DNA from: Cylindrospermum sp. NIES-4074
Lineage (GTDB): Bacteria; Cyanobacteriota; Cyanobacteriia; Cyanobacteriales; Nostocaceae
Assembly (NCBI GenBank): GCA_003994795.1
Contig: AP018269.1
Location: 6,227,687-6,291,686, forward strand
DNA length: 64,000 nt
Direction of reading: 5' to 3'
Made by a program: the position numbers and the translations under genes. Positions 2,594 to 19,400 of the stretch are shown here, piece by piece. Each line of letters begins with the position of its first letter. Position 1 is the first letter of the stretch. Below the pieces are notes generated by a model. It made no database searches, was not told the origin of the DNA, and saw only the letters and a program-made list of their open reading frames with translations.

Positions 2594-4822
2594 CTATCTT
2601 TTCGGTTTTGGTGGTCTAGCCATAGCAGCAGAACTACCTCCTTGATTGTTAGCATTAGGCTTTTGCTGAGACTGGGGGCTTTTTTTGATTGGCTTATCCA
2701 CATCACGACCTTTAAGTTTAGGTTTTGGTTTTGGAGTGTCAGTAGAATTATTTAAATCTGAAGGTGAAGAAGGAAGATTATTAATTCTACGGTTGTCTTC
2801 CAATCCCATTACTTGGAGTGGAGTTGGTAGTACAGGACGTTCTTGGTATTCATTGATAGTTTTATCTCTAGGTTTAGGTCTGCCAATATGGAACTTATTA
2901 ACATCTCGCTCAATTTCCATATATCGAGTGTCTTGATCAATTTTAAGAGAGTTATCCCAAGTCAACATAGCTAATAGCATTTCGATTCTAGGTAAATGTG
3001 AAATGCTATCTATTTCATCTTTATTCTTTCCTTTTGGATAATCTTCTATACTAATATTATTGAGAATATGTGTTTCAAATGGTTTTACAAAAGTTGTATA
3101 GTCTTCACTCACAACCTTAGTTTCCTTGTTTGCCCAATTATTGCCATTAAATAGCTTACTGTAGCGAGATGTGCGATCGCTCAAATACAACTGCGATTCA
3201 ATTTTAACAGCACCCATACCCAAAGGCTTACCCATACCAAGTTTAAGACGGTATTTATCACTTTGGGCAATTTCAAGTACCCACAAAATTGTGCCAAGCT
3301 CAATATTGGTTAAATTTTCAAAATGAATGTTAAATTCAAATGTTACTTCTCTATCAATTGGTTTAATTTTAGTTATTTGAGTTCCTGAAACATTATTACC
3401 TTCAGGATGTTCAATATCGGGCTTTATTCCTTTATGCCAATAAAGTTTATGCCCGCGAATGACTGTTTCTAATTTTGGTTTACTGGCATAGTGTTTTAGT
3501 TTTGATTGATCAGCTTTTATGTCATCTGGCTGAACTAAATAATGCTGAAAGCAAGTTGGTTTTGGTTCACTAAGAATCTGAGGAATTAATGTATCATCAG
3601 GATTACCTTTATACCAGATGCCATTTTTATCAAACTTATATTTAGCATCAGTGATAGACACTCTGCTTCCACGTTGACGGACATTTTGAGGTAATTTTTT
3701 ATCTTCCTTAACCCAACCAAAGATTGCATCAGCTAAGTCAATGATGGAAGAATTATTTCCATGATCCAAATGTAATGGAATAAAATCTACAACAGTAGCT
3801 GCCTGTCCATTACCTTCGGGAGAATAGGGAATACGGAAATTAGGACTTTGACCGAAGAATCCTACTTTATTACCAGTTTGAGGGGGATAGTAAAATACAA
3901 CAGAGCAATTTTCATTTAACATTCCCCAATTTTCGTCAAAAGGCGATTTTTTTTGAAAATCAGTAAGCGCATTACGATAATGATCTATAGCTTTATCATC
4001 TATTCTCAATTTAGTAGAAGTAGAGTTTTGTTCAAAGACAATACAATGGTTTCGGCGTGGTGAAGACTCACTAGCTTGCTTCATATTTCCGCTTGTAACT
4101 AATACCCCTTTTGCTTTATAAATATCTGGTAAATCAACATTCAAAGCAAATAAACGTTTAGCTCTATCACTGATATCTCTGTTTACAGTTTCATAGCTTA
4201 TAGAAATATACTGAGGATGATATTCATCATCATTAAATTTTTTAATATTGCTTAAATTAATTTCCTGCTCTCTAACCCAAGCAAATGTTTCATTTTTAAT
4301 AATTTTTGCTGGCTGGATATACCATCCTTCCTTATCTTGGCTAAGGTATCCAGCCTCAATATTCTTAGGAGAGACATATTGTTTGTATTCTTTTCCCAAA
4401 GAATCCTTGTTAGAACTTGCTGCTACTGCACGGAAAAATAAACGTTGATTATCTGATATTCGATCAATTTTACTAAAGCTAACAATCTCAACTAAATTCC
4501 GCAGCATTCCTCTCAAACTACTACTAGGAATAACAGGCTTTATAGATTTTTCTAAAAGATTTGTGTAAAAGAAATCTGGTAAATATTTTGATTCTAGACC
4601 ACAGTTAAATTCTTCCTTTGTTAATCCACAGCGAATATAAAGCGGTGATTCAGTGATTAAAGTACATTCAATTCTTCCAGTATAGCGATTTTCACAATAG
4701 CGGTTTTCCTGCGGTAGAGATTCTGCTGCTACTGCAACAACTTTTTCGGGTAATTCTACAAAATTGTAGGGAGCGATCGCTTTACGATCATCTGGGACTT
4801 GAGAAATATGCTTAGGATTCAT
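2594..4822 (-). CDS. Type III-D CRISPR RAMP protein, TIGR03986-like (Cas7 with insertion)
   Basis: A 742-aa RAMP-superfamily subunit of a type III effector complex. The N-terminal half has the RAMP signature: a first strand followed by YIRCG, and then the glycine-rich IPSSSLRGMLRNLVE segment near residues 98-112. A long middle region separates this from a second RAMP-like part (residues about 480-570, with MGKPLGMGAVKIESQL). The last 90 residues are proline- and lysine-rich and probably disordered. The architecture matches the TIGR03986 family and the Cas7-insertion subunit described for the Synechocystis III-D2 complex. Its start codon overlaps the csx19 stop (TAATG), so the two are probably translationally coupled. 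Exact function in crRNA or target binding is inferred. Confidence 0.82.
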   Translation of the reverse strand: MNPKHISQVPDDRKAIAPYNFVELPEKVVAVAAESLPQENRYCENRYTGRIECTLITESPLYIRCGLTKEEFNCGLESKYLPDFFYTNLLEKSIKPVIPSSSLRGMLRNLVEIVSFSKIDRISDNQRLFFRAVAASSNKDSLGKEYKQYVSPKNIEAGYLSQDKEGWYIQPAKIIKNETFAWVREQEINLSNIKKFNDDEYHPQYISISYETVNRDISDRAKRLFALNVDLPDIYKAKGVLVTSGNMKQASESSPRRNHCIVFEQNSTSTKLRIDDKAIDHYRNALTDFQKKSPFDENWGMLNENCSVVFYYPPQTGNKVGFFGQSPNFRIPYSPEGNGQAATVVDFIPLHLDHGNNSSIIDLADAIFGWVKEDKKLPQNVRQRGSRVSITDAKYKFDKNGIWYKGNPDDTLIPQILSEPKPTCFQHYLVQPDDIKADQSKLKHYASKPKLETVIRGHKLYWHKGIKPDIEHPEGNNVSGTQITKIKPIDREVTFEFNIHFENLTNIELGTILWVLEIAQSDKYRLKLGMGKPLGMGAVKIESQLYLSDRTSRYSKLFNGNNWANKETKVVSEDYTTFVKPFETHILNNISIEDYPKGKNKDEIDSISHLPRIEMLLAMLTWDNSLKIDQDTRYMEIERDVNKFHIGRPKPRDKTINEYQERPVLPTPLQVMGLEDNRRINNLPSSPSDLNNSTDTPKPKPKLKGRDVDKPIKKSPQSQQKPNANNQGGSSAAMARPPKPKR

Positions 4823-5382
4823 TATTTAATCACCTTAAAAGTAGTTAAGTTAACTAGACGACTTAGATCAATGCGAGCTACACCAGAATCATTGTAATCA
4901 ACATAGTGATGAACATTTAAACGCAAGGGACGATATAATTTCTGATTCTTATCAAATTCAATATCAGTTAAAGGTACAGCATGACGTAAACCTTGCGAAC
5001 CATCTGACACTAAAGTAAAATCACCACAAATTTTATCTGCTTGTGTTCCCCAAAGAATCTGATTTTCGGTGATAAATTCTGTATTTTTTTCATCTTGAAT
5101 TAAACGAGCTTTAAAACCCTCATCAGTCTGCCAAAGCATTACTTCTGATGTTTCACCAAAAGCCCGACATTGTTGCAAAGTAAAAAGACGTAATTTAGGC
5201 AAAAAATCAAATGCACTATCTGCCGTTAATAATTTACCATCTTTAAATTCTCCCCAAATTACTCCATCTTCTGCATGAGCTAACAGAAACTTTAATTGAT
5301 ATTCTTTCGCTTTTTCTTCTAACCATTTATTTATATCTAAATTGGGTGAAATATCTAAAAGCTTGCGTATTGGTTTATTCAA
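4822..5382 (-). CDS. csx19: Type III-D CRISPR accessory protein Csx19 (TIGR03984-like)
   Basis: A 186-aa protein typical of the Csx19/TIGR03984 family found in cyanobacterial type III-D loci. Recognition rests on the LLAHAEDGVIWGEF and FLPKLRLFTLQQCRAFGE segments, overall length, and a conserved place between a double Cas7 and the TIGR03986 RAMP. It overlaps the upstream cas7-2x stop by 4 bp (ATGA) and ends in a TAATG overlap with the next gene. In the characterised III-D2 complex Csx19 is a structural subunit; its precise role is less well defined. No catalytic motif is apparent. Confidence 0.8.
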   Translation of the reverse strand: MNKPIRKLLDISPNLDINKWLEEKAKEYQLKFLLAHAEDGVIWGEFKDGKLLTADSAFDFLPKLRLFTLQQCRAFGETSEVMLWQTDEGFKARLIQDEKNTEFITENQILWGTQADKICGDFTLVSDGSQGLRHAVPLTDIEFDKNQKLYRPLRLNVHHYVDYNDSGVARIDLSRLVNLTTFKVIK

Positions 5383-6797
5383 GCAGCTACCTCCTCATTT
5401 AACGCATCAACAAATTTTTCTAAATCTTCAATATTATCTATAGTTAAAGGTTCATTTTTTGAAGCTTGGGTAATCTTCCAAATTTTATTTTCTGAAGCTA
5501 AAATAATTTTTGCCTCTTTACCCTGTAATCTTCCCCTTCCAATACTACTCGTACCACCAACAGGTAAATCTCCAGTCCACAAGTCTTTCATTAACAATAG
5601 TAACAAGCCAATTTCATGAGGTTTCGGTTGACGTAACTCCAATTCCAGCTTCAACTCTGTTTTGTCGCTCCCAAAAATTGGTTGCTCGTTGAATAATGCA
5701 CCATGTAAAGCACCACCTGTAAAACGGTCAATAGCTATGCGATTTTGTACCAAATCAGTTGTTTCTTTAATGACAATCTCATGAACAATCAAACGGCTTG
5801 CTTTTGCTTTCTTCGTTTTATCCTTGCTGAAATCAACACCAAATATTTCATCAATAATGCTTGTATTTTTCTGGAGAGTATTAACAATTCGTTCCGCACG
5901 ATGACGTAATACCCCCGCTAAACTTGTACCAGATAACACTGGTTGAAACTCTCCATCTCGTCGAGATTTGAGGTGTACGACATCAGGTGCTTTATCGCTA
6001 GATGCTTGGCCAGAACGAATTAATAGGGGACTAGCAAGGGTAAATGTGGCTTGGATGGTTAGGCGATCGCGTTTGTCTTTTCCATCCAAAGATACACTCA
6101 AAGCATCAGCAATTGATTTATATGTACGATATTCGGGTAAAAAACCTGTTGTCCAATGAGGGAAATTTAACCACGCTATCCTGTCATCATATTTTTGTAA
6201 ATCAAATTGCCATACTTGCCATTCTTTTACCTGACAGCGACCAAAACCACGTTGCCTTTTCATACCAATAGAAATTGCACCTTTTTCTAATCCTTGGAGA
6301 ACAATTACTAACTCTTTAATTAGTTGTGCTCGATTATTTTCTATTAGTAATTCAAAATAGAGGTCAAATTGTGTTCCAGTTTCTAGTAATTCCAAGTCAT
6401 ATTTTTGTCCATCTTCAGCAGTTCTGGTAACACTGTTAATTTTGACTCCATCTCGTACTTCTACATGAGGGATAGTGTCGCTAATAGCATCATTAATAAT
6501 TAAAGGACTTTGTTCACCGTCTTCTTCACTACGTTGTCCACCAAATAACACAGATATTTCTTCTGCGTTATAACCATATTCATGATCCCGTAAATAATTC
6601 CGTAACGCCCCAGCAATGGAAGAACCCATCAGTAAAGCTTTATCTTCTACGCTGTCTCGTAAAATAACTAAATCAGTATCACCCTCAGCATCACCACTTC
6701 CTAAACAAGTTGGAGTATCTAAAACTAATGTACCACGTATAATTATTCGCTCAGTAATGTGACGCTGATTGCGATTTCTTAGGGATTCATTAATCAT
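5379..6797 (-). CDS. Tandem Cas7 (Cas7-2x, Csm3-like double RAMP)
   Basis: A 472-aa protein with two Csm3/Cas7 modules in one chain. Module 1 (about residues 15-215) begins with a strand followed by the glycine-rich segment GSSIAGALRNYLRD and has the LFGG loop. Module 2 (about residues 245-435) repeats the plan with LLIRSGQASSDKAPDVV, GTSLAGVLRHRAER and IFGVDF. Such subunits form the crRNA-bound backbone, and an aspartate in the D-containing loop usually cuts target RNA. Candidate catalytic aspartates are in GDAEGDTDLV and in SDKAPDVV. The start overlaps the upstream gene by 8 bp and the end overlaps csx19 by 4 bp, so this is a tight operon. The double Cas7 is the kind reported for III-D2 systems. 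Confidence 0.85.
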   Translation of the reverse strand: MINESLRNRNQRHITERIIIRGTLVLDTPTCLGSGDAEGDTDLVILRDSVEDKALLMGSSIAGALRNYLRDHEYGYNAEEISVLFGGQRSEEDGEQSPLIINDAISDTIPHVEVRDGVKINSVTRTAEDGQKYDLELLETGTQFDLYFELLIENNRAQLIKELVIVLQGLEKGAISIGMKRQRGFGRCQVKEWQVWQFDLQKYDDRIAWLNFPHWTTGFLPEYRTYKSIADALSVSLDGKDKRDRLTIQATFTLASPLLIRSGQASSDKAPDVVHLKSRRDGEFQPVLSGTSLAGVLRHRAERIVNTLQKNTSIIDEIFGVDFSKDKTKKAKASRLIVHEIVIKETTDLVQNRIAIDRFTGGALHGALFNEQPIFGSDKTELKLELELRQPKPHEIGLLLLLMKDLWTGDLPVGGTSSIGRGRLQGKEAKIILASENKIWKITQASKNEPLTIDNIEDLEKFVDALNEEVAA

Positions 6798-8379
6798 TCT
6801 TTTTCTCCTTTGTTGCCTTTTTAGCTACTGCCATAATTAAACGCAATGTATATTTTTCAGCTAGTTTATTTTCTCTAGAGAACTCATCTGTGATAGTTCG
6901 TTCTTCATTTGCAACTCGTACTTTTAGTTTTTGGGAGTTACCAATCCAAGACATGGGATTATGCAGCCATTCATCAAGCTTTTGCTTAAGAGGTTTATCG
7001 TTAATTTCTGCTCTTTCAAACTGACCTCTAGCATTAGAAGGGAGATTATTCAGCAGAGATAAAACTAAATCACAGTCTCCTGCTGATAATGCTTGTCTTG
7101 CTACCATCTGTAAGCGAGATAATTGACTATTGCTGATTTTACCTTCTATTTTTAAATAGCCAATTTGCTTTTGTAATGCTTGTTCCATTTTTTGATGCAG
7201 TAATCTCTCTGCCATTTGTGCTGCTAAAATTTGTGATGTTTGTAGTTTTAATAAAGGCTGACTAGATGTTTTTGGAGGTTCAGGTTGTTTTGCATCAAAA
7301 GAAGATTTTTCTAGCCAGTTCACAGCAACTCTGCCAAAACCTTCAACTCTGCGCTCACCAATGCCTAAATTTTCTAATTGTTGAATTTGTTCTGAAGTTA
7401 GAAGAATATTATCAAAAACGAATACGCTTCCTGCTTTCAATACTGGAACTTGAGGCAAAGGTAGTCCCCATTTTCGATTAAATCCACCTACTAAATTATT
7501 ACCAGCAAAGCTACGTTGTGGTTTAAGTGTTCCTAAAACTTTTTCGAGTTCCTTTGTTAACGGTGCTGGTATTTTATCTTCTTTTGATGGCGGAATAACG
7601 GCGTACTGACCCCACTCATCACGTAAGATCAAATCACTCAAAAGTGTAATTGTTAAACATTCGTGGTTAATACGTTCAGTAGCCGGGATATTTATTTCAT
7701 TCCAAGCATCGTGACAATTAACATCACATATTTTGGTATATCCGTAACCTGCACTTTGAGAACCGCCTAGCCAAATATCTGCCGATGTTTGGAGCAGATT
7801 TTTGAGAAAGTCTGCATCAGCTTCATGACACAGAATGACAGCTTGAAAAACCTGTCCAGTATCTATGGCATCATAACAAAATATTTCCCCTTCTGCTTGA
7901 CTAGAGCGTCCTTTTTTGCGATCGCGTCGGTTATGAATATTGATACGCCGCTTTTCTTTGTAAAATGTAACTCCACCCTCTTCTGTCCAGAAAGATTCTC
8001 CAACAGACTTCGGTGTTTCTGGTTTTTCATCTTCATCAATACTGAAATCGTAAACTGATATAAGTGGTACTTTGTCACTCAGTTGTGAATCCTTGTCTTT
8101 GAACCAAGAAAGAGGTACAGGTAGCGTGCGCTTTTGCTTATGACTTAGCAAATAACCATTTAAATAGCAAGTATTTTTATCAAAAAAAAGGCGCTTTACT
8201 ACATCATTGTTCAAATCTAAATCTGATAAATGATACTCTTTCATATAACGTCCAATTATTGCACCCCGAATCATGCTACCTGGAATATAATTGTAGGAAA
8301 CATCACTATTTGGATCGCCTTGGAATGAGGTAGCAAGTAGTGGTTGTTGAGTATCCAATGAAAAGGTGATAGCTTTCAC
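6790..8379 (-). CDS. csx10: Csx10 (Cas5-like RAMP) with C-terminal helical Cas11-like region
   Basis: A 529-aa type III-D subunit. Residues 1-360 form a Csx10/Cas5-type RAMP: IPGSMIRGAIIGRYM near the N-terminus, a basic segment (NIHNRRDRKKGRS), LGGSQSAGYG, and a final GIGERRVEGFGRVAVNWL. Residues about 380-529 are charged and predicted helical, rich in leucine, glutamine and lysine. They resemble a fused small subunit (Cas11). In Synechocystis III-D2 a Cas7-Cas5-Cas11 fusion is known; here the Cas7 part is a separate gene just upstream, whose stop is immediately next to this start. The RAMP call is firm; the Cas11 assignment of the tail is inference from composition and from that published fusion. 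Confidence 0.8.
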   Translation of the reverse strand: MKAITFSLDTQQPLLATSFQGDPNSDVSYNYIPGSMIRGAIIGRYMKEYHLSDLDLNNDVVKRLFFDKNTCYLNGYLLSHKQKRTLPVPLSWFKDKDSQLSDKVPLISVYDFSIDEDEKPETPKSVGESFWTEEGGVTFYKEKRRINIHNRRDRKKGRSSQAEGEIFCYDAIDTGQVFQAVILCHEADADFLKNLLQTSADIWLGGSQSAGYGYTKICDVNCHDAWNEINIPATERINHECLTITLLSDLILRDEWGQYAVIPPSKEDKIPAPLTKELEKVLGTLKPQRSFAGNNLVGGFNRKWGLPLPQVPVLKAGSVFVFDNILLTSEQIQQLENLGIGERRVEGFGRVAVNWLEKSSFDAKQPEPPKTSSQPLLKLQTSQILAAQMAERLLHQKMEQALQKQIGYLKIEGKISNSQLSRLQMVARQALSAGDCDLVLSLLNNLPSNARGQFERAEINDKPLKQKLDEWLHNPMSWIGNSQKLKVRVANEERTITDEFSRENKLAEKYTLRLIMAVAKKATKEKKND

Positions 8380-9045
8380 TTAATTTTCCTCTGGAATTGT
8401 TCCAAATAAATTTACATGATCATGTGTTATTTCTTTTCTTGAACTATCGTGTAAAGTACATCTTACATATCCACGTCCTCGATTTCGTCCGCTTCCTATA
8501 CGTCGTAGTGCTAGTGTACCCACTGCTAAAATTGACAGTATTTTATCACTTGGTTCGGTTTCAAAGAGTAAATCGGCTTTAAATTCAAGTTCACGAATCA
8601 CCACACGAAAAGAGCGTAAACTTCCCTTATCAGCTACCCCAGTTTCGGAATTAATTGCAGTTTGACGACGAATTGTTGTGAGTGAATCTAGAACTTCTGT
8701 TTTAGTAAGTGTTTTCTTTTTAATTTGAAAAGCAACTGCTTCTCGTAAATCGTCAGCTAAACAAGCATCTCCTACGTGCATTGATGCTATTGTTCCCTGA
8801 ATACTACCTGGTGTACCAAAAAGAATGCAGGCAAGATTTTCCCAATCTTGACGAATTTCAGGTGGTAAAACTGCAATTAAGTTATCGCATTCTTCACTCA
8901 ACAAACCTTTGAGTGTGCGTCCACGTAAATAAGGAAATCCGCTAGAATCATGCTCTACTTCTTGATCAATTAAACCAGCTACACCATCGCCTCTGCCGAA
9001 AGTTGTATCACTTAAAAGTTTAATTTTTATTTGATAAATAGTCAC
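8380..9045 (-). CDS. Small Cas7-like RAMP subunit, type III-D
   Basis: A 221-aa single-domain RAMP. It starts with a strand followed by TFGRGDGVAG, has the glycine-rich PYLRGRTLKGLLSEECD (about residues 38-54), CILFGTPGS, and ends with RRIGSGRNRGRGYVRC. Length is normal for a single Csm3/Cmr4-like protein. It lies directly between cas10 and csx10 with no intergenic space. An aspartate-rich loop (IDQEVEHDSSG) may include the target-RNA cleavage residue. It corresponds by position to the Cas7 part of the Cas7-5-11 fusion of III-D2 systems, kept here as an independent gene. Confidence 0.82.
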   Translation of the reverse strand: MTIYQIKIKLLSDTTFGRGDGVAGLIDQEVEHDSSGFPYLRGRTLKGLLSEECDNLIAVLPPEIRQDWENLACILFGTPGSIQGTIASMHVGDACLADDLREAVAFQIKKKTLTKTEVLDSLTTIRRQTAINSETGVADKGSLRSFRVVIRELEFKADLLFETEPSDKILSILAVGTLALRRIGSGRNRGRGYVRCTLHDSSRKEITHDHVNLFGTIPEEN

Positions 9046-10656
9046 CTAATCCCCCAGTTTAAGATAAAATTCCATCGCTTCAATAGCATCAAAGTATCCA
9101 CAAATTCCGTCTTTCCATCCATCTTTTGCCAGTTGTTGACTTTGACCACTAGATTCTGGAAAAGAAGGTAGTTGTGCTAATTTGTAAGCTAATAAAAACT
9201 CTTTAGTCGCATCATTAGATGCTTTACGTAAAACTTCTCGTAAAGCCATTACTTTATTATGACGTTCTTTCCAATCCTCTCCCTCTTTAAATTCTTTGAC
9301 AACTTGGGTAAAACCTTCCCAAGTTCGCCACTCACTACTATGCTTTTCCAGTCGCACAGGACGCATTGCTAAATTCCAATTATCTTTGCTATCAACAGGT
9401 ATTTGATATTCAAGCTTGCGAATTTCAGAAATTGAACCTAATAAACCACTGGCTGCTAAATGCCAATCAATTGCTGAAAATCCATCTGGATCAGACTCCT
9501 TATTTTCTTTAACAAACTTCTTAGCTTCTTTGCATAACTCCTCAGTAATTTTATAAGCTCTTGCGAAAGGATAGTGAGTTTTAACAACACAAATACCTGC
9601 ACAAGCTGTCAATTTTTTACCATCTGTAACAGGCTGTTTCTCAAATTCTCGAAGAAATAAAGCAGCTAGTTCTAGTCCCAATCTCCCTTCACAAATAAAT
9701 GTGATATCATCACCTCCATAAACTAAAGGACGAAAAGGGAGATAATATTTAGCTTTGAGTTGAAATTCTCCTAGTTTACCAACAACTTTTCCTTCTTGTA
9801 TTGACTTTGTAATTACCTGCACAACAGCTTTTAGTGCATTTTTACCAGCCTTGTGAACACTTTTAGAAAAATCGCGCATCCTTTGGATGTAATCTCTATT
9901 ATTCTTTGCATCTTCACCATATTTTTGAAACCGCTTACCCATACTGTTACCATCAGCATGAATAATTGCTGCATAGCTAGATTCCCTTTGAGAACGTCCT
10001 AAATGATCTGTTCGGTAGGGGAACTGATAAATATCACCGTCAACTACGTCAGCGAAGATTTTTTGCAGTTCTTTATTTGCTCTATCGACCGCTTTTAATT
10101 TTTCCTTAGTTTCAGTGGAGATAAGATAGCTATTTGCTTCTTCATCATTATCTTGAATATATCTATCAACGGCAGGTAATTGAGTTGAATTACAAACTGC
10201 TGTCACACCTAAACCTAGTAATGGTGCTGAAGGAATTCGCTCATGTTTTCGGCGATCAATTTCTCCTTCCATCAAATCTTTAACTACTTGATAAAGATTA
10301 TCTTCATCCCAATCAAATTCAGCATGAGCAACTACTAGATTAATTCCCGGTGCTTTTTCTAAAACTCGCTTGCTCAATATTCTAGTGAAACTTATAGCAA
10401 TTTCTCGTGATTTGAATACTATTAATGTGTTTCCACCACCTGCATAAACTATTTCAGCATTAAATTCGCTTGTTTCAATTGGTTTATCTTGTTGATTTTT
10501 GGGAACACCTAATTTATCTAAAGTTTCTTCTACCCAATCACCTGTTGCTTCAGAAACTAAATGAGATGCTCCAATATTTTCGCGCAGACGGTTACTGCTA
10601 AAAATATAACCCTGAATCCCTGATGTATCTATTACAGTTATAGTAAATTTACTCAT
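9046..10656 (-). CDS. cas10: Cas10 large subunit without HD domain, type III-D
   Basis: A 536-aa signature subunit of a type III effector. It opens directly with a palm-like segment (DTSGIQGYIFSSNRLRENIG) and shows GGGNTLIVF. The second palm carries the cyclase motif YGGDDITF (GGDD at residues 314-317) after IIHADGNSMGKRF. An N-terminal HD nuclease domain is absent, and the length is well below the roughly 750-900 aa of HD-bearing Cas10 proteins. The expected output is therefore cyclic oligoadenylate rather than DNA cleavage. The start overlaps the upstream CARF gene by 4 bp (ATGA). No clear four-cysteine zinc ribbon is visible. Confidence 0.9.
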   Translation of the reverse strand: MSKFTITVIDTSGIQGYIFSSNRLRENIGASHLVSEATGDWVEETLDKLGVPKNQQDKPIETSEFNAEIVYAGGGNTLIVFKSREIAISFTRILSKRVLEKAPGINLVVAHAEFDWDEDNLYQVVKDLMEGEIDRRKHERIPSAPLLGLGVTAVCNSTQLPAVDRYIQDNDEEANSYLISTETKEKLKAVDRANKELQKIFADVVDGDIYQFPYRTDHLGRSQRESSYAAIIHADGNSMGKRFQKYGEDAKNNRDYIQRMRDFSKSVHKAGKNALKAVVQVITKSIQEGKVVGKLGEFQLKAKYYLPFRPLVYGGDDITFICEGRLGLELAALFLREFEKQPVTDGKKLTACAGICVVKTHYPFARAYKITEELCKEAKKFVKENKESDPDGFSAIDWHLAASGLLGSISEIRKLEYQIPVDSKDNWNLAMRPVRLEKHSSEWRTWEGFTQVVKEFKEGEDWKERHNKVMALREVLRKASNDATKEFLLAYKLAQLPSFPESSGQSQQLAKDGWKDGICGYFDAIEAMEFYLKLGD

Positions 10657-11927
10657 TTTGCATCCTCATCATTTTGGTCAATCCAATTAGAAATTTCTTC
10701 AGATAAATTTGTTAGATGTTCTCGTCCAAATACAGCAATTTTTTTATCATTTGTAGAAGACAAAATTTCAGCTTTGAGAGTATCTGGTTCGTTAAAACAA
10801 CAAATTAAAGCCACTCTAGCTTCGTCTCCTCCCATTTGCCTGGCTCTAAGATATGCTTCAAAAAGCTTATTTTTACATAAGTCTCTTTTGCTTGTTGTCG
10901 AACAAGAAATAGCAAAAAGTTGATATCCCCGTGTAAAGGCAACATCGAACTCAAACCCATCTCTAGTACCTTTAATAGGAATTTCAAAATTTAGTCCGTA
11001 GTCTTTTATCTGCTTATCAGCAATATTTTTGACTTGTTCTAACGCATAATGTTCTAGCCATAACCCATCAAGCCACTTGCAAAAATGTTTAATTTCTTTG
11101 AAAATTCCTGTTTTCTCAACTTCTCGCAACGAAAGCTTATTATCAGGTGTAACAAATTTTTCTTGTTTAAAGGCTGAAATTATTTCTTGTGGTAGGTTCT
11201 CCAGAGATATTGATACTTCTAACAAAGAAGTCTTACTTTTCCACTCTCCCCCACTATTTAATTTATTCTTATACGCTTGCTCACGAAAAACGTTGTAAAA
11301 CCAGTCAAGCCACTGCTTTGCTTTATTTTCTTCCTTAAAAATATTTGCAAGTTCTGTTGCTAATTTTGGTAATTGCGCCTGTTGTGTCGGTTTTTGTTTT
11401 AACTCCAACCCATGTAATTGGAAAAGTTTTACTAGCTCTAGTTGTATTTCTAGTAATTCAGGTGTGATTTTAATACGACTGCGCTCTCCATCTTCCCTAT
11501 CTATGCACATCTCTAACCTACGTGGATCAAGATAGCTAAATACCGTATCAAATCGAGATTGACTGAATACTGCTCTATAAGCGTGTACCGCCATTGCTTT
11601 TGTCCCGCCTGTATAATTCAAACCGATTTTTCCGTTTTTTAAACCTTGAATTTTACGGCGAATTTCATCTTGAATGTGATAAGCATCAGACTCATATTTA
11701 CCTAGTGAAATTAGCTGCGCTGGTTGGAAACCTTTTCCTTCTTCGTCCCTGTCTAGAATATTTTTTAGCCGTTTAGCTTGAGTTTCTGTAACAGTTGTAT
11801 GTACTAAATATGGAGTACCATCTTTTTTCAGTAATAAATTTGCTGTGACATAATTAGGTAAAGGATTTTCACCAATAAGGAGAAATAGATGGTCAACTTT
11901 GTATTTATCAAACTCTGATGCGCTCAT
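10653..11927 (-). CDS. Can2/Card1-like CARF effector (DUF1887 family), PD-(D/E)XK-like domain
   Basis: An effector of the cyclic-oligoadenylate response. The N-terminal CARF domain has LFLLIGENPLPNY and the hallmark LNYTGGTKAMAV. The C-terminal third has a restriction-like segment: FEFDVAF followed by YQLFAISCSTTSK. In characterised family members the second position is E-x-K; here it reads S-C-S, so the catalytic site is atypical and activity is uncertain. The start at 11927 (MSASEFDKYK) is preferred because a GAGG site lies about 10 bp upstream; an in-frame ATG at 11972 would add 15 residues. The stop overlaps the cas10 start. It would bind the cOA made by Cas10, with ring size unknown. Confidence 0.82.
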   Translation of the reverse strand: MSASEFDKYKVDHLFLLIGENPLPNYVTANLLLKKDGTPYLVHTTVTETQAKRLKNILDRDEEGKGFQPAQLISLGKYESDAYHIQDEIRRKIQGLKNGKIGLNYTGGTKAMAVHAYRAVFSQSRFDTVFSYLDPRRLEMCIDREDGERSRIKITPELLEIQLELVKLFQLHGLELKQKPTQQAQLPKLATELANIFKEENKAKQWLDWFYNVFREQAYKNKLNSGGEWKSKTSLLEVSISLENLPQEIISAFKQEKFVTPDNKLSLREVEKTGIFKEIKHFCKWLDGLWLEHYALEQVKNIADKQIKDYGLNFEIPIKGTRDGFEFDVAFTRGYQLFAISCSTTSKRDLCKNKLFEAYLRARQMGGDEARVALICCFNEPDTLKAEILSSTNDKKIAVFGREHLTNLSEEISNWIDQNDEDAK

Positions 11928-11995
11928 GTAAATTACCTCACGTTTTAAATTTATGTGTTCATCAATAACCAAGCAGTTAATTAGCGATCGCCCTT

Positions 11996-12913
11996 TTACC
12001 CCCCACTCAACCCCACCAACAACCGCGCTAAAGCCTTTATCACCAAGCGTTCTGCAACATCCTCTCCTCGCTGCAAACGGTGAACGCTTCCCTGAAGAGG
12101 TGATATTTCTGAATGTATCACGTCATTTGTTCCGTGATAATCACTAAAAATAATGGCTACTATTTGTAAATTCAACGACTCGCACAACTCTTGCCAAGGT
12201 GCAATTTCACTTTCATCTTTCACCAAAATTACGGCGTGAGTGGCTTCAGCCATAATCAAACGGTTTTCTGGGGAAATTTTGCCACCTACATCAAAGACAA
12301 ATATCGGTGTATTAATTCCCTTGACTTGCTGCGCTTTCAGTCGCGCGAACTCTGGCGTAAATCCGGCTTTGTACTCCGCTTTTAATGTCTGCGCTAAATC
12401 TAAATCGCGGCGTGCAGTTTCCCCATACCATGAACCATCTCCATCTGGACAACCTGAGATGAAATAAGACTCTGGTGCATGGGGAATCTGCAACAACGCC
12501 TGTTTTAAACCATCCCGAAAACAAGTTTTTCCTGTATTCGCAAACCCACACAGCGCAACTTTGAGACTTGGCTGTTGCTTTGTTCGCACTACATCCAAAA
12601 TATCCCCAACTTTGTACTCAGGGTTATTACTGACAGTGACTACGTACCTATCTAGTCCTTTATCGCCAATTTTGGGATCAAAAAATGCCACTACATCATA
12701 CAACTTCAACAATTTAGCCGCTAAAATTTGACTAACCAGCACAGATGTGCGTCCGTTGATTTTAATCAGAGAACCACCAGGCAATTCCCCAGCAGCAATC
12801 ATCTCATTTAGCCTAGCTTCGGCATCACGGACAACTTGATCACCTGTGGCCAGGATAGCGCCAAATCCTACTTTTAAGATGTCACCCTCTAAATTTATCT
12901 GGTAAATACTCAT
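11996..12913 (-). CDS. csx3: Csx3 domain fused to a P-loop NTPase
   Basis: A 305-aa fusion. Residues 1-112 align end to end with the separate Csx3 protein just upstream (shared ELxGGxLxKINGxxS, FFDPK, YVVxxxxNPxYKxGD). Residues about 117-290 form a P-loop NTPase: Walker A GFANTGKT, a DVGG segment in IFVFDVGGKIS as the likely Walker B/switch, and AVILVKDE. Csx3-AAA-type fusions are known in type III loci and Csx3 (Crn3) cleaves cyclic tetra-adenylate. Here the two histidines of the stand-alone Csx3 (H65, H69) are A66 and K70, while the FFDP aspartate (D79) is kept. Ring-nuclease activity of this copy is therefore doubtful. It precedes the CARF gene in the same direction. Confidence 0.82.
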   Translation of the reverse strand: MSIYQINLEGDILKVGFGAILATGDQVVRDAEARLNEMIAAGELPGGSLIKINGRTSVLVSQILAAKLLKLYDVVAFFDPKIGDKGLDRYVVTVSNNPEYKVGDILDVVRTKQQPSLKVALCGFANTGKTCFRDGLKQALLQIPHAPESYFISGCPDGDGSWYGETARRDLDLAQTLKAEYKAGFTPEFARLKAQQVKGINTPIFVFDVGGKISPENRLIMAEATHAVILVKDESEIAPWQELCESLNLQIVAIIFSDYHGTNDVIHSEISPLQGSVHRLQRGEDVAERLVIKALARLLVGLSGG

Positions 12914-13024
12914 GAATTATAGTGCGGAATAAAAACTAATGAGGGCAATAGTCTCACTGCTTTGTAGCTGAACCGTCTTTCGTTTTTTCGACAGCCAAAA
13001 ATCTCAAAGTCTTAATTTAAAAGA

Positions 13025-13112
13025 CTTTTATTTTTCTTGGAGAAAATAAAATATTAATTTTTCAGAGACTCTCAAAAGTTGGGTTTATTTTCTTCCTCCA
13101 AAGAAATAAAAG
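13025..13112 (-). promoter_or_regulatory. Long imperfect hairpin between csx3 and csx3-NTPase genes
   Basis: Arms at about 13025-13051 and 13084-13112 are complementary over most of 27-29 positions (CTTTTATTT...GGAG against CTCC...AAATAAAAG). The loop is about 32 bp. It lies in the 210-bp gap between csx3 and the fusion gene, so it would be in the transcript. It lacks a GC-rich stem with a T run, so a processing or attenuation role is as likely as termination. The function is inferred from position only. Confidence 0.4.
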
Positions 13113-13123
13113 AGTTCAAGAAT

Positions 13124-13429
13124 TTAATCAATCAAATCTCCTAATTTATACGCTGGATTATGAGTAATAGAAACCACATATTTACCTAATTTTGGGTCAA
13201 AAAACCCAATCGCACCATAAATATGAGCAAGTTTATGGGCCAAGACAAATGCCACAGGTATAGAGACTGGCCCATTAATCTTCAGCAGTTGACCCCCAGC
13301 CAGTTCTCCAGACTGTGCCATTTCTTCTAACCGTGCCGCCGCATCCTTCACAATCTGGTCATTTTGGGCAGGTTCACCAAAATTAACCCGCAAGATTCCG
13401 TCTTTTAACTCGATTTTGTAAGTAGCCAT
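13124..13429 (-). CDS. csx3: Stand-alone Csx3 (Crn3-type ring nuclease)
   Basis: A 101-aa protein that is a full-length Csx3. It has GGQLLKINGPVSIPVA, LAHKLAHIYGAIGFFDPK and YVVSITHNPAYKLGD. Csx3 from Archaeoglobus is a cyclic tetra-adenylate phosphodiesterase that acts as a tetramer; conserved His and Asp residues in this region are important. This copy keeps H65, H69 and D78. It is the first gene of the minus-strand cassette and is divergent from the WYL regulator, with only 34 bp between start codons. Its likely task is to switch off the CARF effector by removing the messenger. Confidence 0.88.
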   Translation of the reverse strand: MATYKIELKDGILRVNFGEPAQNDQIVKDAAARLEEMAQSGELAGGQLLKINGPVSIPVAFVLAHKLAHIYGAIGFFDPKLGKYVVSITHNPAYKLGDLID

Positions 13430-13463: not shown

Positions 13464-14879
13464 ATGGTACTGGAAGCAGCCTATTCCAGGTTGGTCTATG
13501 CTGGAATTACACCCAAAGTTATAGGTAAGTGTCCTTTGCAAATTTTTGCTGATGTTCCCCAAATAGAACTGCTGCAATGGTTAGCACGCGGTTCTCTGAA
13601 ACAAAACCTGCTGCGTGCAATTCGCTTGTGGGTGTGGTTGCGTTCTTTATATGGAGAAGGTCAAGACCAGGTGTTGCTGAATGATGGTTTCACTTTAGCA
13701 GACTGGCGGAATGCTTTTTTCAGTTCCACACACCCCAAAGGGGAAGCAATTCCCAAACTGCATGACTCTAACTGCCATTGTGCTAAAACTATTGCTGCTT
13801 GGTTGTTTGAGGCTAAAACTGGATTGAATGAAGACGATTGGATGCGATCGCTCTTGGCTCATGCTAAAATTTCCAATTTAGATGAACTACTACAGCAGCG
13901 ATTATTTGCCGTAACTCGTCGCTCTCTCCAAGCAGATTTGCAGATTTTAGCAGCATTAGGTTGGCTAGAATATCGAGAGCAAAAATATCATCGAGTCAAA
14001 CAGTTACCCTCTCGTCCCACCACCACAACTAAACTCAATCACAACGAATTACATTTTCTCAATCAAGAAGACTTAGCAGAAATTGCCCAAAATCATGCCC
14101 AGCAAATCTGCGGTGTTCAGCGATTCTTCTTCAAACTTGACTATGTTAGTCCTCGTAGCACTATAGATCAAGTGGATGAGTGGCAACACGAATTGAGAGA
14201 AATCTGGAGACAAACGCCAGTACCACCCGTCAGGCTAACTTACAACAGCGCCAGGTTAGGAAATGTTGTGGAATGTTTAGTTTACCCAGTCTGCATCTAC
14301 TATGTGCAGCGTGCAGTTTACCTTTGTGCTTTTGGGCAAAGTCCTGATAGAAAAACTGATTGGTATAATTATCGTCTTGACAGGATTCTAGAAATAACCC
14401 CCATCAAGTGGACAAATTCGGCTATCCCCCAGATTCTGCAACAACGCTACAATAAGGCAACTTTGCCGAATCCAGAAGAGATTGAAGGGCAAATGTCCAA
14501 AGCTTGGGGCTTTGATTTTTACTTACAGCCGCAACTGATGCTGTTGAGATTTGACCGTGAATATAGCGATCGCTATATTCAATATACCGTTCGTCATGAA
14601 ACCTTTGAAGCAATTTCCTACCAGCAAGCACAACGTCTGATTCGACAGCACACTCCACAAGGGTTACAACAACAGGCATTATTGAAAGTTCTTGCGGCGC
14701 GTTCCCCAGAAGATGCCTACTACCGAGTGTGCTATCGACATGGAGATAACAATGTTGTCATGCGTTTACGGGCATGGCGACCAAAGGCTGAAGTGCTTAT
14801 GCCTTGGGATTTGCGCCGAAGCATTGCAGCTGATATTGCCGCCGAATTTTTGCTTTATCAGGTAGGAAATTTTCTCTAA
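13464..14879 (+). CDS. TIGR03985-like CRISPR-associated WYL-domain regulator
   Basis: A 471-aa protein of the cyanobacterial CRISPR-associated TIGR03985 type. The middle section contains a winged-helix-like region (TRRSLQADLQILAALGWLEYRE, written as a motif over residues about 151-172). A WYL-like core follows (AVYLCAFGQSPDRK, then WYNYRLDRILEI), and a C-terminal WCX-like domain (YYRVCYRHG..., VMRLRAWRPKAEVLMPW). WYL proteins in CRISPR loci are ligand-sensing transcription factors. The gene is divergent from csx3, so the 34-bp gap and the 5' ends must hold overlapping promoters. This makes it a strong candidate regulator of the cassette. The target and ligand are unknown. Confidence 0.78.
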   Translation: MVLEAAYSRLVYAGITPKVIGKCPLQIFADVPQIELLQWLARGSLKQNLLRAIRLWVWLRSLYGEGQDQVLLNDGFTLADWRNAFFSSTHPKGEAIPKLHDSNCHCAKTIAAWLFEAKTGLNEDDWMRSLLAHAKISNLDELLQQRLFAVTRRSLQADLQILAALGWLEYREQKYHRVKQLPSRPTTTTKLNHNELHFLNQEDLAEIAQNHAQQICGVQRFFFKLDYVSPRSTIDQVDEWQHELREIWRQTPVPPVRLTYNSARLGNVVECLVYPVCIYYVQRAVYLCAFGQSPDRKTDWYNYRLDRILEITPIKWTNSAIPQILQQRYNKATLPNPEEIEGQMSKAWGFDFYLQPQLMLLRFDREYSDRYIQYTVRHETFEAISYQQAQRLIRQHTPQGLQQQALLKVLAARSPEDAYYRVCYRHGDNNVVMRLRAWRPKAEVLMPWDLRRSIAADIAAEFLLYQVGNFL

Positions 14880-17617: not shown

Positions 17618-17719
17618 TAACTAATATCAGCCCTGTCAATGTAAGTTCAATTGTGAATTACCAGACGGGGCACAGATTTTTTAAAGCTGTAATTGCTTCT
17701 ATTTTGGATGTTGAAACTA

Positions 17720-18340
17720 ATGTTTGTCACAAAGCAACTAATTATCGCTTTTGGGTTAGGATTGGCTGCTTTATATACGGCCACTCCCTGTAGAGCTTCT
17801 GCCTTGACCTATCAAGGTGATACAACAAATAAGCCAACTTGGCTGCGTACTTCACCAGGTAATCCTCCCAATAGAGTCAGTGGTCAGAACGCTGGGGAAA
17901 CGGGTATGATTGTGCCCTACAGCATTTTTCAGTTTGCGGTTGAAGAATCAGGCTTGTATGCCTTTGCGAGTGCTGTACCTGGAGCTACTTCATCTACTGA
18001 TGGAGCCTGGGATAATTTTCTGGTTTTATATGAAGACAGTTTTGACCCCACTAGCCAATTGACCAATGTCCTCATAGCAAATAACGCTCCTAATAACGGT
18101 AGCCTTGCCTTTAACCGACAACTAACTGCTGAACGAAACTACTTTTTAGTCACCACTGGTCGTCGGTCAACTGAGTTTGGCGTTTTCATCAACACCATCA
18201 GTGGTTCAGGTAAAGTTGTCGCAGTTCCCGAATCGAGTTCAATACCTGGGACACTAGTTGCTGTTGGTGTTGGTTTACTTTTTTCTCAGGGAAGACGGGG
18301 TAGTGTCACAGTAGCAGACACTTTGAACGCAAACATATAG
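17720..18340 (+). CDS. PEP-CTERM-like secreted protein, one repeat unit
   Basis: About 206 aa from the ATG at 17720, chosen because its MFVTKQLII start matches the paralogue downstream. A signal peptide ends near CRASA. One beta-rich module of about 135 residues begins LTYQGDTTNKPTWLR and has FQFAVEESGLYAFASAVPGA, WDNFLVLYEDSFDP and FLVTTGRRSTEFG, like pre-peptidase C-terminal/DVUA0089-type domains. The tail VPESS + GTLVAVGVGLLF + RR is a degenerate PEP-CTERM, with S in place of the second P. Lies 100 bp after the previous PEP-CTERM gene. Confidence 0.75.
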   Translation: MFVTKQLIIAFGLGLAALYTATPCRASALTYQGDTTNKPTWLRTSPGNPPNRVSGQNAGETGMIVPYSIFQFAVEESGLYAFASAVPGATSSTDGAWDNFLVLYEDSFDPTSQLTNVLIANNAPNNGSLAFNRQLTAERNYFLVTTGRRSTEFGVFINTISGSGKVVAVPESSSIPGTLVAVGVGLLFSQGRRGSVTVADTLNANI

Positions 18341-18362
18341 TTCAACTAGCATATCTAAAATT

Positions 18363-19400
18363 ATGTCAATAGCAATGTTTGTTACAAAGCGGCTGATTAT
18401 AGCCATTGGTATGGGGCTGGCTGCTTTGTGTACTGCTACCCCTGCTAGAGCGATCGCCATAACTTATCAGGGTGACACAACAAATCAGCCAACTTGGCTG
18501 CGTACCATCATAGGTAATCCTCCTGATCAGGTTACTGGTCTACTCCCTGGAGAAGTTCCCATAATTGTACCTTACAGCGTTTACCAGTTTGTGGTAGCTG
18601 AATCGGGCTTGTATACTTTTGGTAGTGCTGTACCTGGAGCTACATCATCTATTAATGGAGACTGGGATAATTTTCTGGTTCTATATCAAGACAGTTTCGA
18701 CCCCACTGATCAATTGACCAATATCCTCGTAGCTGGCAATGCTCCAAATAATGGTGATTCTACCTTCACTAGAGAACTGACAGCTGGAGAAAACTACTTT
18801 TTGGTGACAACTGGCCGTCGGGGAAGAGACTTTGGTGCTTTTAGTAATGCGATCGCATTTGCAGGTGACAATATTAGCCCTCCTGCTATTTCCTCTTTTG
18901 CTTATCAAGGTGACACAACTGGTGCACCGACCTCGTTTCACCTTGTACCAGGCGATCCTCCGAGGCGGGTGAGTGGTGCTTTGGCTGCCTACAGCGTCTT
19001 TCAGTTTGCCGTCGATTACTCTGGTTTGTATGACTTTACCAGTGCTGTTCCTAATGCCACCTCTGCCATTGATGGCGGTTGGGATAATTTTTTGACCCTT
19101 TATCAAGATAGTTTTAACCCGACTGCTCAACTAAGCAATGCACTTGTAGCAGCTAATGCTCCGAACAATGGCAGTCTTGCCTTCAGCAAAGAACTTACCA
19201 CCGGCAAAAATTACTTTTTAGTGACTTCTGGTCGTCAATTGAGTGAATTTGGTGCATTTACCAATACTATTAATGGTTTAGGGAAAGTTACAGCAGTTCC
19301 CGAACGGGGTCTGACTCCAGGTACACTGGCTGCTGTTGGTATTGGCTTGCTGCTGTACAAGCAGAGACAGGGTAGTATTAGTGGGCGTTCCAGCTTCTAG
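18363..19400 (+). CDS. PEP-CTERM-like secreted protein, duplicated repeat unit
   Basis: A 345-aa paralogue of the preceding gene. After a signal peptide (ending near PARA), the same module occurs twice: residues about 32-170 (ITYQGDTTNQPTW...FLVTTGRRGRDFGAF) and about 182-310 (FAYQGDTTGAPTSF...FLVTSGRQLSEFGAF). The tail is VPERG followed by a hydrophobic stretch and KQRQ, another degenerate PEP-CTERM. An alternative start at 18375 would match the neighbour's N-terminus. Together the two genes hold three copies of one module, a recent tandem duplication by appearance. Confidence 0.75.
   Translation: MSIAMFVTKRLIIAIGMGLAALCTATPARAIAITYQGDTTNQPTWLRTIIGNPPDQVTGLLPGEVPIIVPYSVYQFVVAESGLYTFGSAVPGATSSINGDWDNFLVLYQDSFDPTDQLTNILVAGNAPNNGDSTFTRELTAGENYFLVTTGRRGRDFGAFSNAIAFAGDNISPPAISSFAYQGDTTGAPTSFHLVPGDPPRRVSGALAAYSVFQFAVDYSGLYDFTSAVPNATSAIDGGWDNFLTLYQDSFNPTAQLSNALVAANAPNNGSLAFSKELTTGKNYFLVTSGRQLSEFGAFTNTINGLGKVTAVPERGLTPGTLAAVGIGLLLYKQRQGSISGRSSF

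Follow-up and report, generated by a model that had tools for sequence, protein, structure and literature searches.

The 64,000-nucleotide stretch of Cylindrospermum sp. NIES-4074 analyzed here (contig AP018269.1, positions 6,227,687 to 6,291,686; "the window") carries two adjacent Csx3 genes at a type III-D CRISPR locus. One encodes a standalone Csx3/Crn3 of 101 residues and the other a 305-residue fusion of a Csx3 domain with a P-loop nucleoside triphosphatase (NTPase) domain. From its residues, the standalone protein is predicted to be a complete ring nuclease for cyclic tetra-adenylate (cA4); the fusion retains one half of the split Csx3 active site and has lost the histidines of the other. 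This pattern of histidine loss is no oddity of the window genome and recurs in many pairs, and a division of labor between paired Csx3 proteins appears, by sequence comparison, to recur across cyanobacteria.

Active-site residues of the two Csx3 proteins

In the Csx3 of Archaeoglobus fulgidus, cA4 is sandwiched between two dimers. One contributes its "H60 face" (H57, H60, and H80) and the other its "D69 face" (S44, G45, R46, I49, D69, and R71). Neither of the variants H60A and D69A is active alone, and a mixture of the two restores activity (PMC7371418). The standalone Csx3 of the window shows H65, H69, and H90 as the equivalents of the three histidines, and its D69 face is composed of N52, G53, P54, I57, D78, and K80. 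The fusion has A66, K70, and N96 in place of the histidines and a D69 face of N53, G54, R55, V58, D79, and K81. The Csx3 domains of the two proteins are 51% identical over ∼109 residues.

These assignments come from the alignment of a 37-sequence profile to the A. fulgidus structure 3WZI (E value, 1.1e-15), which pairs H65 with H57, H69 with H60, D78 with D69, and H90 with H80 and needs a one-residue gap in the A. fulgidus sequence. A first-pass annotation of the window had described both open reading frames (ORFs), the residue sets H65/H69/D78 and A66/K70/D79, and the Walker A motif GFANTGKT of the fusion. The positions, lengths, and minus strand (Table 1) as well as the residues agree with the translations, and the alignment to 3WZI confirms its placing of A66 and K70 at catalytic positions. 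It correctly recognized two lost histidines and missed the third, which is H90 in Csx3 and N96 in the fusion. A single-sequence search of the PDB with phmmer had set H69 beside H60, one place off, an assignment corrected by the profile alignment. The sole PDB match of that search is 6YUD, which reads AHKYAH against AHKY-HH in 3WZI; these letters fit the H60A variant crystallized in PMC7371418.

The standalone protein scores 24 bits against the Pfam family Cas_csx3 (PF09620), above the curated cutoff of 21, and 23.3 against NCBIfam TIGR02579, below the stricter cutoff of 55.4. The equivalent of R71, a residue termed absolutely conserved in PMC7371418, is a lysine in both window proteins. In the window Csx3, this is a conservative change outside the Pfam definition. 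The fusion matches the PADLOC profile PDLC01045 (Csx3-AAA) with residues 1-300 on profile positions 1-285 of 286 (1.4e-112). Lacking the H60-face histidines of Crn3, it is not classed as a ring nuclease; on its D69 face, G54 and D79 are kept and K81 replaces R71.

Face-specific loss of histidines in paired fusions

Searches covered 386 genomes of the phylum, with a P0001 match in 43 and a P0002 match in 32, and 217 genomes of the family, 104 of which gave a match; plasmid records were also searched, and relatives on genome contigs are the best 80 of 129 loci. Since the window fusion served as bait, the survey is cyanobacterial and weighted to the family of the window. After deduplication, it contains 58 pairs of Csx3 and fusion, 32 unpaired fusions, 11 one-chain Csx3-Csx3-P-loop proteins, and 9 loci with Csx3 and a P-loop-only gene, among which G420, with a broken fusion, is counted. 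Three loci with two Csx3 ORFs and no intact P-loop domain (G300, G522, and G531) are uncounted. The co-occurrence of the two genes elsewhere, which the first-pass annotation had made a test of its idea, is thus found at 58 distinct loci. A set of 53 intact pairs from the family of the window leaves out G385 and G556, whose standalone protein is degenerate, and the loci from Acaryochloris (L260), Chamaesiphon (L264), and Cyanosarcina (L265). The partner in L265 is a 64-residue fragment 628 bp off, with another Csx3/P-loop ORF between, and the pair is doubtful.

At least one histidine is lost in 53/58 paired fusions and the H60 equivalent in 49/58. Among the unpaired fusions, the corresponding counts are 5/32 and 5/32, and all three histidines are kept in 27/32. 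The equivalents of G45, D69, and K71 are kept in all 90 fusions, paired and unpaired; lysine at the R71 position is likewise found in 56 of the 58 partners (not in the degenerate partner of G385 or the fragment of L265). Within the 53 intact pairs, every standalone protein keeps H57, H60, H80, and D69. Among the fusions of these pairs, 49 lack one or more of the histidines, 46 lack H60, and 4 are intact; none is changed at G45, D69, or K71. The replacements in this set are often alike: D at H57 in 25 fusions, K at H60 in 26, and K or R at H80 in 25. Fisher tests on the 53 intact pairs give p values of 1.3e-10 and 3.9e-13; they take no account of ancestry and are given no weight as proof here.

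On a tree of the P-loop domains, parsimony finds 10, 13, and 13 changes at H57, H60, and H80 of the 58 paired fusions and none at G45, D69, and K71. For the 58 partners, it finds none at the three histidines, 2 at D69, and 1 at K71, and these last changes disappear when the degenerate and outlying loci are excluded. With losses modeled as irreversible on a tree that omits five long or odd rows, H60 is lost in 8 paired-only clades versus 1 unpaired clade, with branch lengths of 6.4 versus 5.4; one of the 8 is the decaying locus G556. The corresponding numbers are 4 versus 2 for H57 and 7 versus 1 for H80. G131 and L261 are outside this tree; among the rows left out, L260 and L265 have each lost H60 in a paired fusion, and L261 has lost it in an unpaired one. 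The unpaired fragment G450, counted within the 32, is absent from the tree on which the H60 contrasts given below were counted. Of the 32 columns with no variation among the partners, the three histidine columns taken together stand out for their variability in the fusions, as 0.011 of all three-column choices reach their sum.

A Csx3 match elsewhere in the genome is present in 7 of the 28 unpaired-fusion genomes searched (one, in G438, with an internal stop), and the fusions of these genomes are intact. The loss therefore goes with adjacency.

The P-loop domain

The Walker A motif of the window fusion covers residues 123-130. The protein matches no Pfam family, its P-loop domain gives no firm profile match in Pfam or the PDB, and 69 relatives show weak, mixed matches to models of AAA proteins, GTPases, kinases, and helicases. 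"AAA" is a label for this domain; the D-V-G-G motif is reminiscent of the DxxG of GTPases. A Walker A motif ending in GK[ST], counted on the P-loop domain, is present in 56/58 paired and 32/32 unpaired fusions. It is missing only from G385 and G556, two decaying loci in which the standalone gene is degenerate as well.

The sister loci L073 (9186-9452) and L190 (991-1299) carry degenerate standalone Csx3 genes, one truncated and one with a scrambled stretch; the fusions beside them have lost histidines too, along with the final residue of Walker A, the picture of a decaying pair. At L081, L186, L187, L188, L189, L191, L192, and L193, Csx3 adjoins a P-loop-only gene of 191-208 residues in which no Csx3 domain was found. 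The fusion matches in G278, G478, G479, G494, and G502 lie in open frames of 1072-1118 residues, compared to ∼305-330 residues for most others. A second, distant Csx3/P-loop subfamily comprises the 14 loci L097-L110 (e.g., L097, 7587-8507), with 24-26% identity to the window fusion in the members compared. It shows an archaeal-like site, by eye with H-x2-H in 12/14 (exceptions, L103 and L108), and in two of its genomes (G199 and G284), a standalone Csx3 lies 11-18 kb distant.

One-chain proteins and outlying pairs

The one-chain Csx3-Csx3-P-loop proteins carry unequal histidine sets in their two domains in 10 of 11 cases. In 7 of the 11, the losses are reciprocal, with H80 lost from the first domain (H57 and H60 kept) and H57 lost from the second (H60 and H80 kept). 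Two proteins from Pseudanabaena show a loss confined to H57 of the first domain, and in G131, the first domain lacks D69, R71, and H80 and the second is complete.

On a tree of the Csx3 domains (117 alignment columns, several long branches), the standalones of the window family form a single clade with the first domains of the one-chain proteins outside it. The simple form of a "Rosetta stone" relationship, in which the one-chain protein equals standalone plus fusion, is rejected: a single clade of standalones and first domains has a p value of 1.2e-10 in the approximately unbiased (AU) test. The groupings of standalones with second domains and of fusions with either first or second domains are also rejected, and that of first with second domains is not. 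Two unlike Csx3 domains are evidently joined more than once. The two copies of the Chamaesiphon pair are sisters, and both are intact, as a recent duplication would leave them. The Acaryochloris pair stands apart on the tree, and its fusion reads A, Q, and H at the histidine sites.

Genomic context

The type III-D module lies downstream of both Csx3 genes, which are upstream of the CARF effector and Cas10d (Table 1). The spacer between the paired genes has a median of 44 bp in the survey; the genes overlap by 1-13 bp in 5/58 pairs, and the spacer of the window is the second longest. The repeat search of window positions 1-30000 listed no CRISPR-like array.

Table 1. Features at the Csx3 locus of the window
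Feature	Position	Strand	Remarks
Standalone Csx3/Crn3, 101 aa	13124-13429	minus	Pfam Cas_csx3 match and profile alignment
Spacer between standalone Csx3 and fusion genes, 210 bp	12914-13123	minus	
Csx3/P-loop fusion, 305 aa	11996-12913	minus	PADLOC Csx3-AAA match; Csx3 domain ∼residues 1-110
P-loop NTPase half of fusion	11999-12562	minus	∼residues 118-305; Walker A GFANTGKT, D208-V-G-G, conserved CPDGDGSW
CARF-PDDEXK effector (Can2/Card1-like)	10653-11972	minus	Probable cA4-activated nuclease of the locus
Cas10d with GGDD cyclase motif	9046-10656	minus	Motif from translation; source of cyclic oligoadenylate
Type III-D effector genes: Cas7-like, Csx19, Csx7/Cas7, Csx10/Cas5, Cas7	2594-9045	minus	
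TIGR03985 WYL-domain regulator	13464-14879	plus	Divergent from Csx3 genes

A relative of the TIGR03985 WYL regulator is found near 53/58 pairs and 18/32 unpaired fusions, and it is likely a dedicated regulator. A gene with an HD domain is found near 31/58 pairs and 14/32 unpaired fusions. Elsewhere in the window (17708-18662), two 300-nucleotide stretches within neighboring ORFs are 74% identical, perhaps through gene duplication, and the C termini of these ORFs resemble sorting signals by eye.

Proposed mechanism and alternative explanations

The explanation starts from what is observed, namely, the residues of the two proteins, the face-specific losses, and the pairing. The standalone protein would be a complete ring nuclease and the fusion a cA4 receptor that is reset by the neighboring Csx3, a reading that is favored here and, taken whole, has somewhat less than an even chance. 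In this mechanism, the D69 half-site of the fusion would hold cA4, and the P-loop NTPase would form the output. The fusion would have discarded the H60 half-site, so that stacks of fusion alone could not destroy their own ligand. The H60 face of a neighboring Csx3 would then meet cA4 on the D69 face of the fusion, cut it, and reset the fusion. That opposite faces of different dimers would form one active site is carried over from the biochemistry of the A. fulgidus protein; because the solved enzyme completes its site with the opposite face of a second dimer, the neighboring Csx3 is the natural source of the missing half-site. We infer contact between standalone and fusion, binding of cA4 by the fusion, and control of the NTPase domain by cA4.

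The individual steps differ in strength. With its H60 face lost, the fusion alone very probably does not cut cA4, and it probably binds cA4 via the retained D69 face. By analogy to the mixed mutants, Csx3 may clear fusion-held cA4 in trans, on which the balance tilts slightly to the negative, and gating of the NTPase by cA4 is a more tentative suggestion still. Doubtful is a broader view in which evolution would have split the active site between two paralogues, leaving the D69 half-site and the NTPase output to the fusion and the H60 half-site to Csx3. The fusion would sense cA4, which would be erased only once Csx3 docks, and similar divisions would have been reached more than once, in the window-family pairs, the Acaryochloris pair, and the one-chain proteins with reciprocal losses.

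Three other explanations are weighed against the reset receptor. The next in rank, itself unlikely, makes the fusion a cA4 sponge or sensor independent of Csx3: its D69 face would bind cA4 and gate the P-loop domain or sequester the ligand, and any ring nuclease would clear free cA4. It accounts for four Synechocystis fusions that lack H60-face histidines and an adjacent Csx3 and retain D69 and K71, and it has a parallel in the Csx15 ring-nuclease family, which includes noncutting, filament-forming sponge members and shows that type III loci contain cA4 binders that stack and do not cut (PMC13148439). It leaves unexplained that the losses concentrate beside Csx3 and are absent in the 7 genomes with Csx3 elsewhere. 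Plain redundancy, in which the cutting half of the fusion decayed under relaxed selection once a complete Csx3 had become adjacent, without any new function, is improbable. The faster overall change of the fusion domains (554 versus 402 changes in the partners) and the differences between lineages in which histidines went are in its favor, yet D69, K71, and G45 are unchanged in the paired fusions, Walker A persists in 56 of them, and few partners are degenerate (G385, G556, and the L265 fragment). The least probable explanation regards mixed stacks as a brake, with a fusion dimer capping the end of a Csx3 stack so that its H60 face, in which D, K, and K/R often replace the histidines, covers cA4 uncut and slows its decay, perhaps depending on nucleoside triphosphate. 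The nonrandom replacement residues of the 53 intact pairs would suit such a cap, as would the cooperative activity of Csx3, which is governed by stacking (PMC7371418); the D/K/K-R set, however, belongs mostly to one clade and may reflect shared ancestry.

Several results weigh against the fusion as a receptor reset by its neighbor. Pairing is clustered on the trees, where 3-4 changes leave 2-4 independent contrasts, too few for significance. For the H60 trait, an average of 0.5 of the 2 contrasts agrees, 0.1 opposes, and 1.4 is without difference, and most random pairings show no difference in the histidine trait, with some running the opposite way; for the loss of any histidine, the averages are 1.1, 0.0, and 1.9 of 3 contrasts. 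Pairing also tracks CRISPR subtype: the unpaired fusions accompany III-B in 21/32 cases and III-A in 2, with none seen in 9, and the pairs accompany III-A in 15 and III-D in 10, with none seen in 33/58 (short flanks are perhaps part of the cause). The four Synechocystis fusions, including Slr7080, lack H60 and H80 (in three cases H57 as well) and have no Csx3 beside them; for two of the four, a search of the whole genome found no other Csx3 match. The unpaired fusion of L261 has likewise lost H60 and H80, and 5/58 paired fusions have all histidines intact. In one of the one-chain proteins (G123), both domains have lost all three histidines. Retention of D69 and K71 in Synechocystis too argues for binding at most and not for catalysis in trans, and the 7 genomes mentioned above show that Csx3 elsewhere in the cell is insufficient alone for histidine loss. 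Deletion of Slr7080 is reportedly without effect on plasmid defense (PMC9676260, citing Shah 2019). Finally, the D69 face of the standalone protein is unrelaxed in 53/53, by which measure the partner is unneeded for its own activity.

For the first-pass annotation, the outcome is mixed. Its suggestion that the fusion may bind the messenger without cutting it agrees with the residues, as only the H60 face is lost and D69 and K71 never are, the pattern expected of such a domain. Its two-part off-switch has to be loosened: strict mutual dependence of standalone and fusion is unsupported, since the standalone retains its D69 face, and the losses in Synechocystis occur without an adjacent Csx3.

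Significance and comparison with known systems

Published work already covers the Csx3 domain and its fold, the division of the active site between dimers, and the fusion architecture. Csx3 is unusual in that its active site is formed from opposite faces of two stacking dimers, as demonstrated with mixed engineered mutants (PMC7371418). Nature has seemingly made an H60A-like half repeatedly and retained it beside an intact partner. Within the literature open to full-text search, no report was found of paired Csx3 and fusion genes with face-specific loss, and an earlier remark on the histidine loss is possible. If the receptor reading is true, the Csx3-AAA fusion gains a role as a cA4 receptor reset by its neighbor, and the two proteins offer a system for studying the timing of type III CRISPR signaling.

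The closest known protein is the Crn3/Csx3 of A. fulgidus (PDB 3WZG-I, 6VJG, and 6YUD), which the window standalone resembles in its domain and in H57, H60, D69, and H80. The window standalone differs in having K80 for R71, P54 for R46, and an extra residue between the first two histidines, and its locus, unlike that of A. fulgidus Csx3, encodes an adjoining paralogue without the H60 face. The window fusion is a member of the Csx3'/Csx3-AAA fusions (PADLOC PDLC01045), which include Slr7080 of Synechocystis and are described as Csx3 joined to a kinase/transferase or AAA domain (PMC7371418, PMC9676260, and PMC12409355). Slr7080 (plasmid pSYSA; L115, 8001-8933) is named a putative ring nuclease in print (PMC9676260). 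By sequence, it has lost all three histidines, and it has no adjacent Csx3; the receptor reading would predict it to be noncutting.

Other systems share single features with the pair. Some members of Csx15 bind without cutting, and the family differs in its CARF fold; the accessible text of PMC13148439 mentions neither a P-loop fusion nor an active adjacent paralogue. CalpL (Lon-SAVED) and other filament effectors form ligand-driven stacks, and CalpL combines effector activity with ligand degradation (PMC13148439). It differs in its SAVED domain and protease and in having cutting and sensing within one protein. More than one ring nuclease is found in only 10 of 242 ring-nuclease loci (PMC12409355), and the accessible text of that paper does not take up Csx3 pairs. 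The Crn2-Csx1 fusion also joins a ring nuclease to a second activity (PMC12409355); in that protein, the ring nuclease is active and its companion is the ribonuclease effector, whereas the window fusion links a probably noncutting domain to an NTPase.
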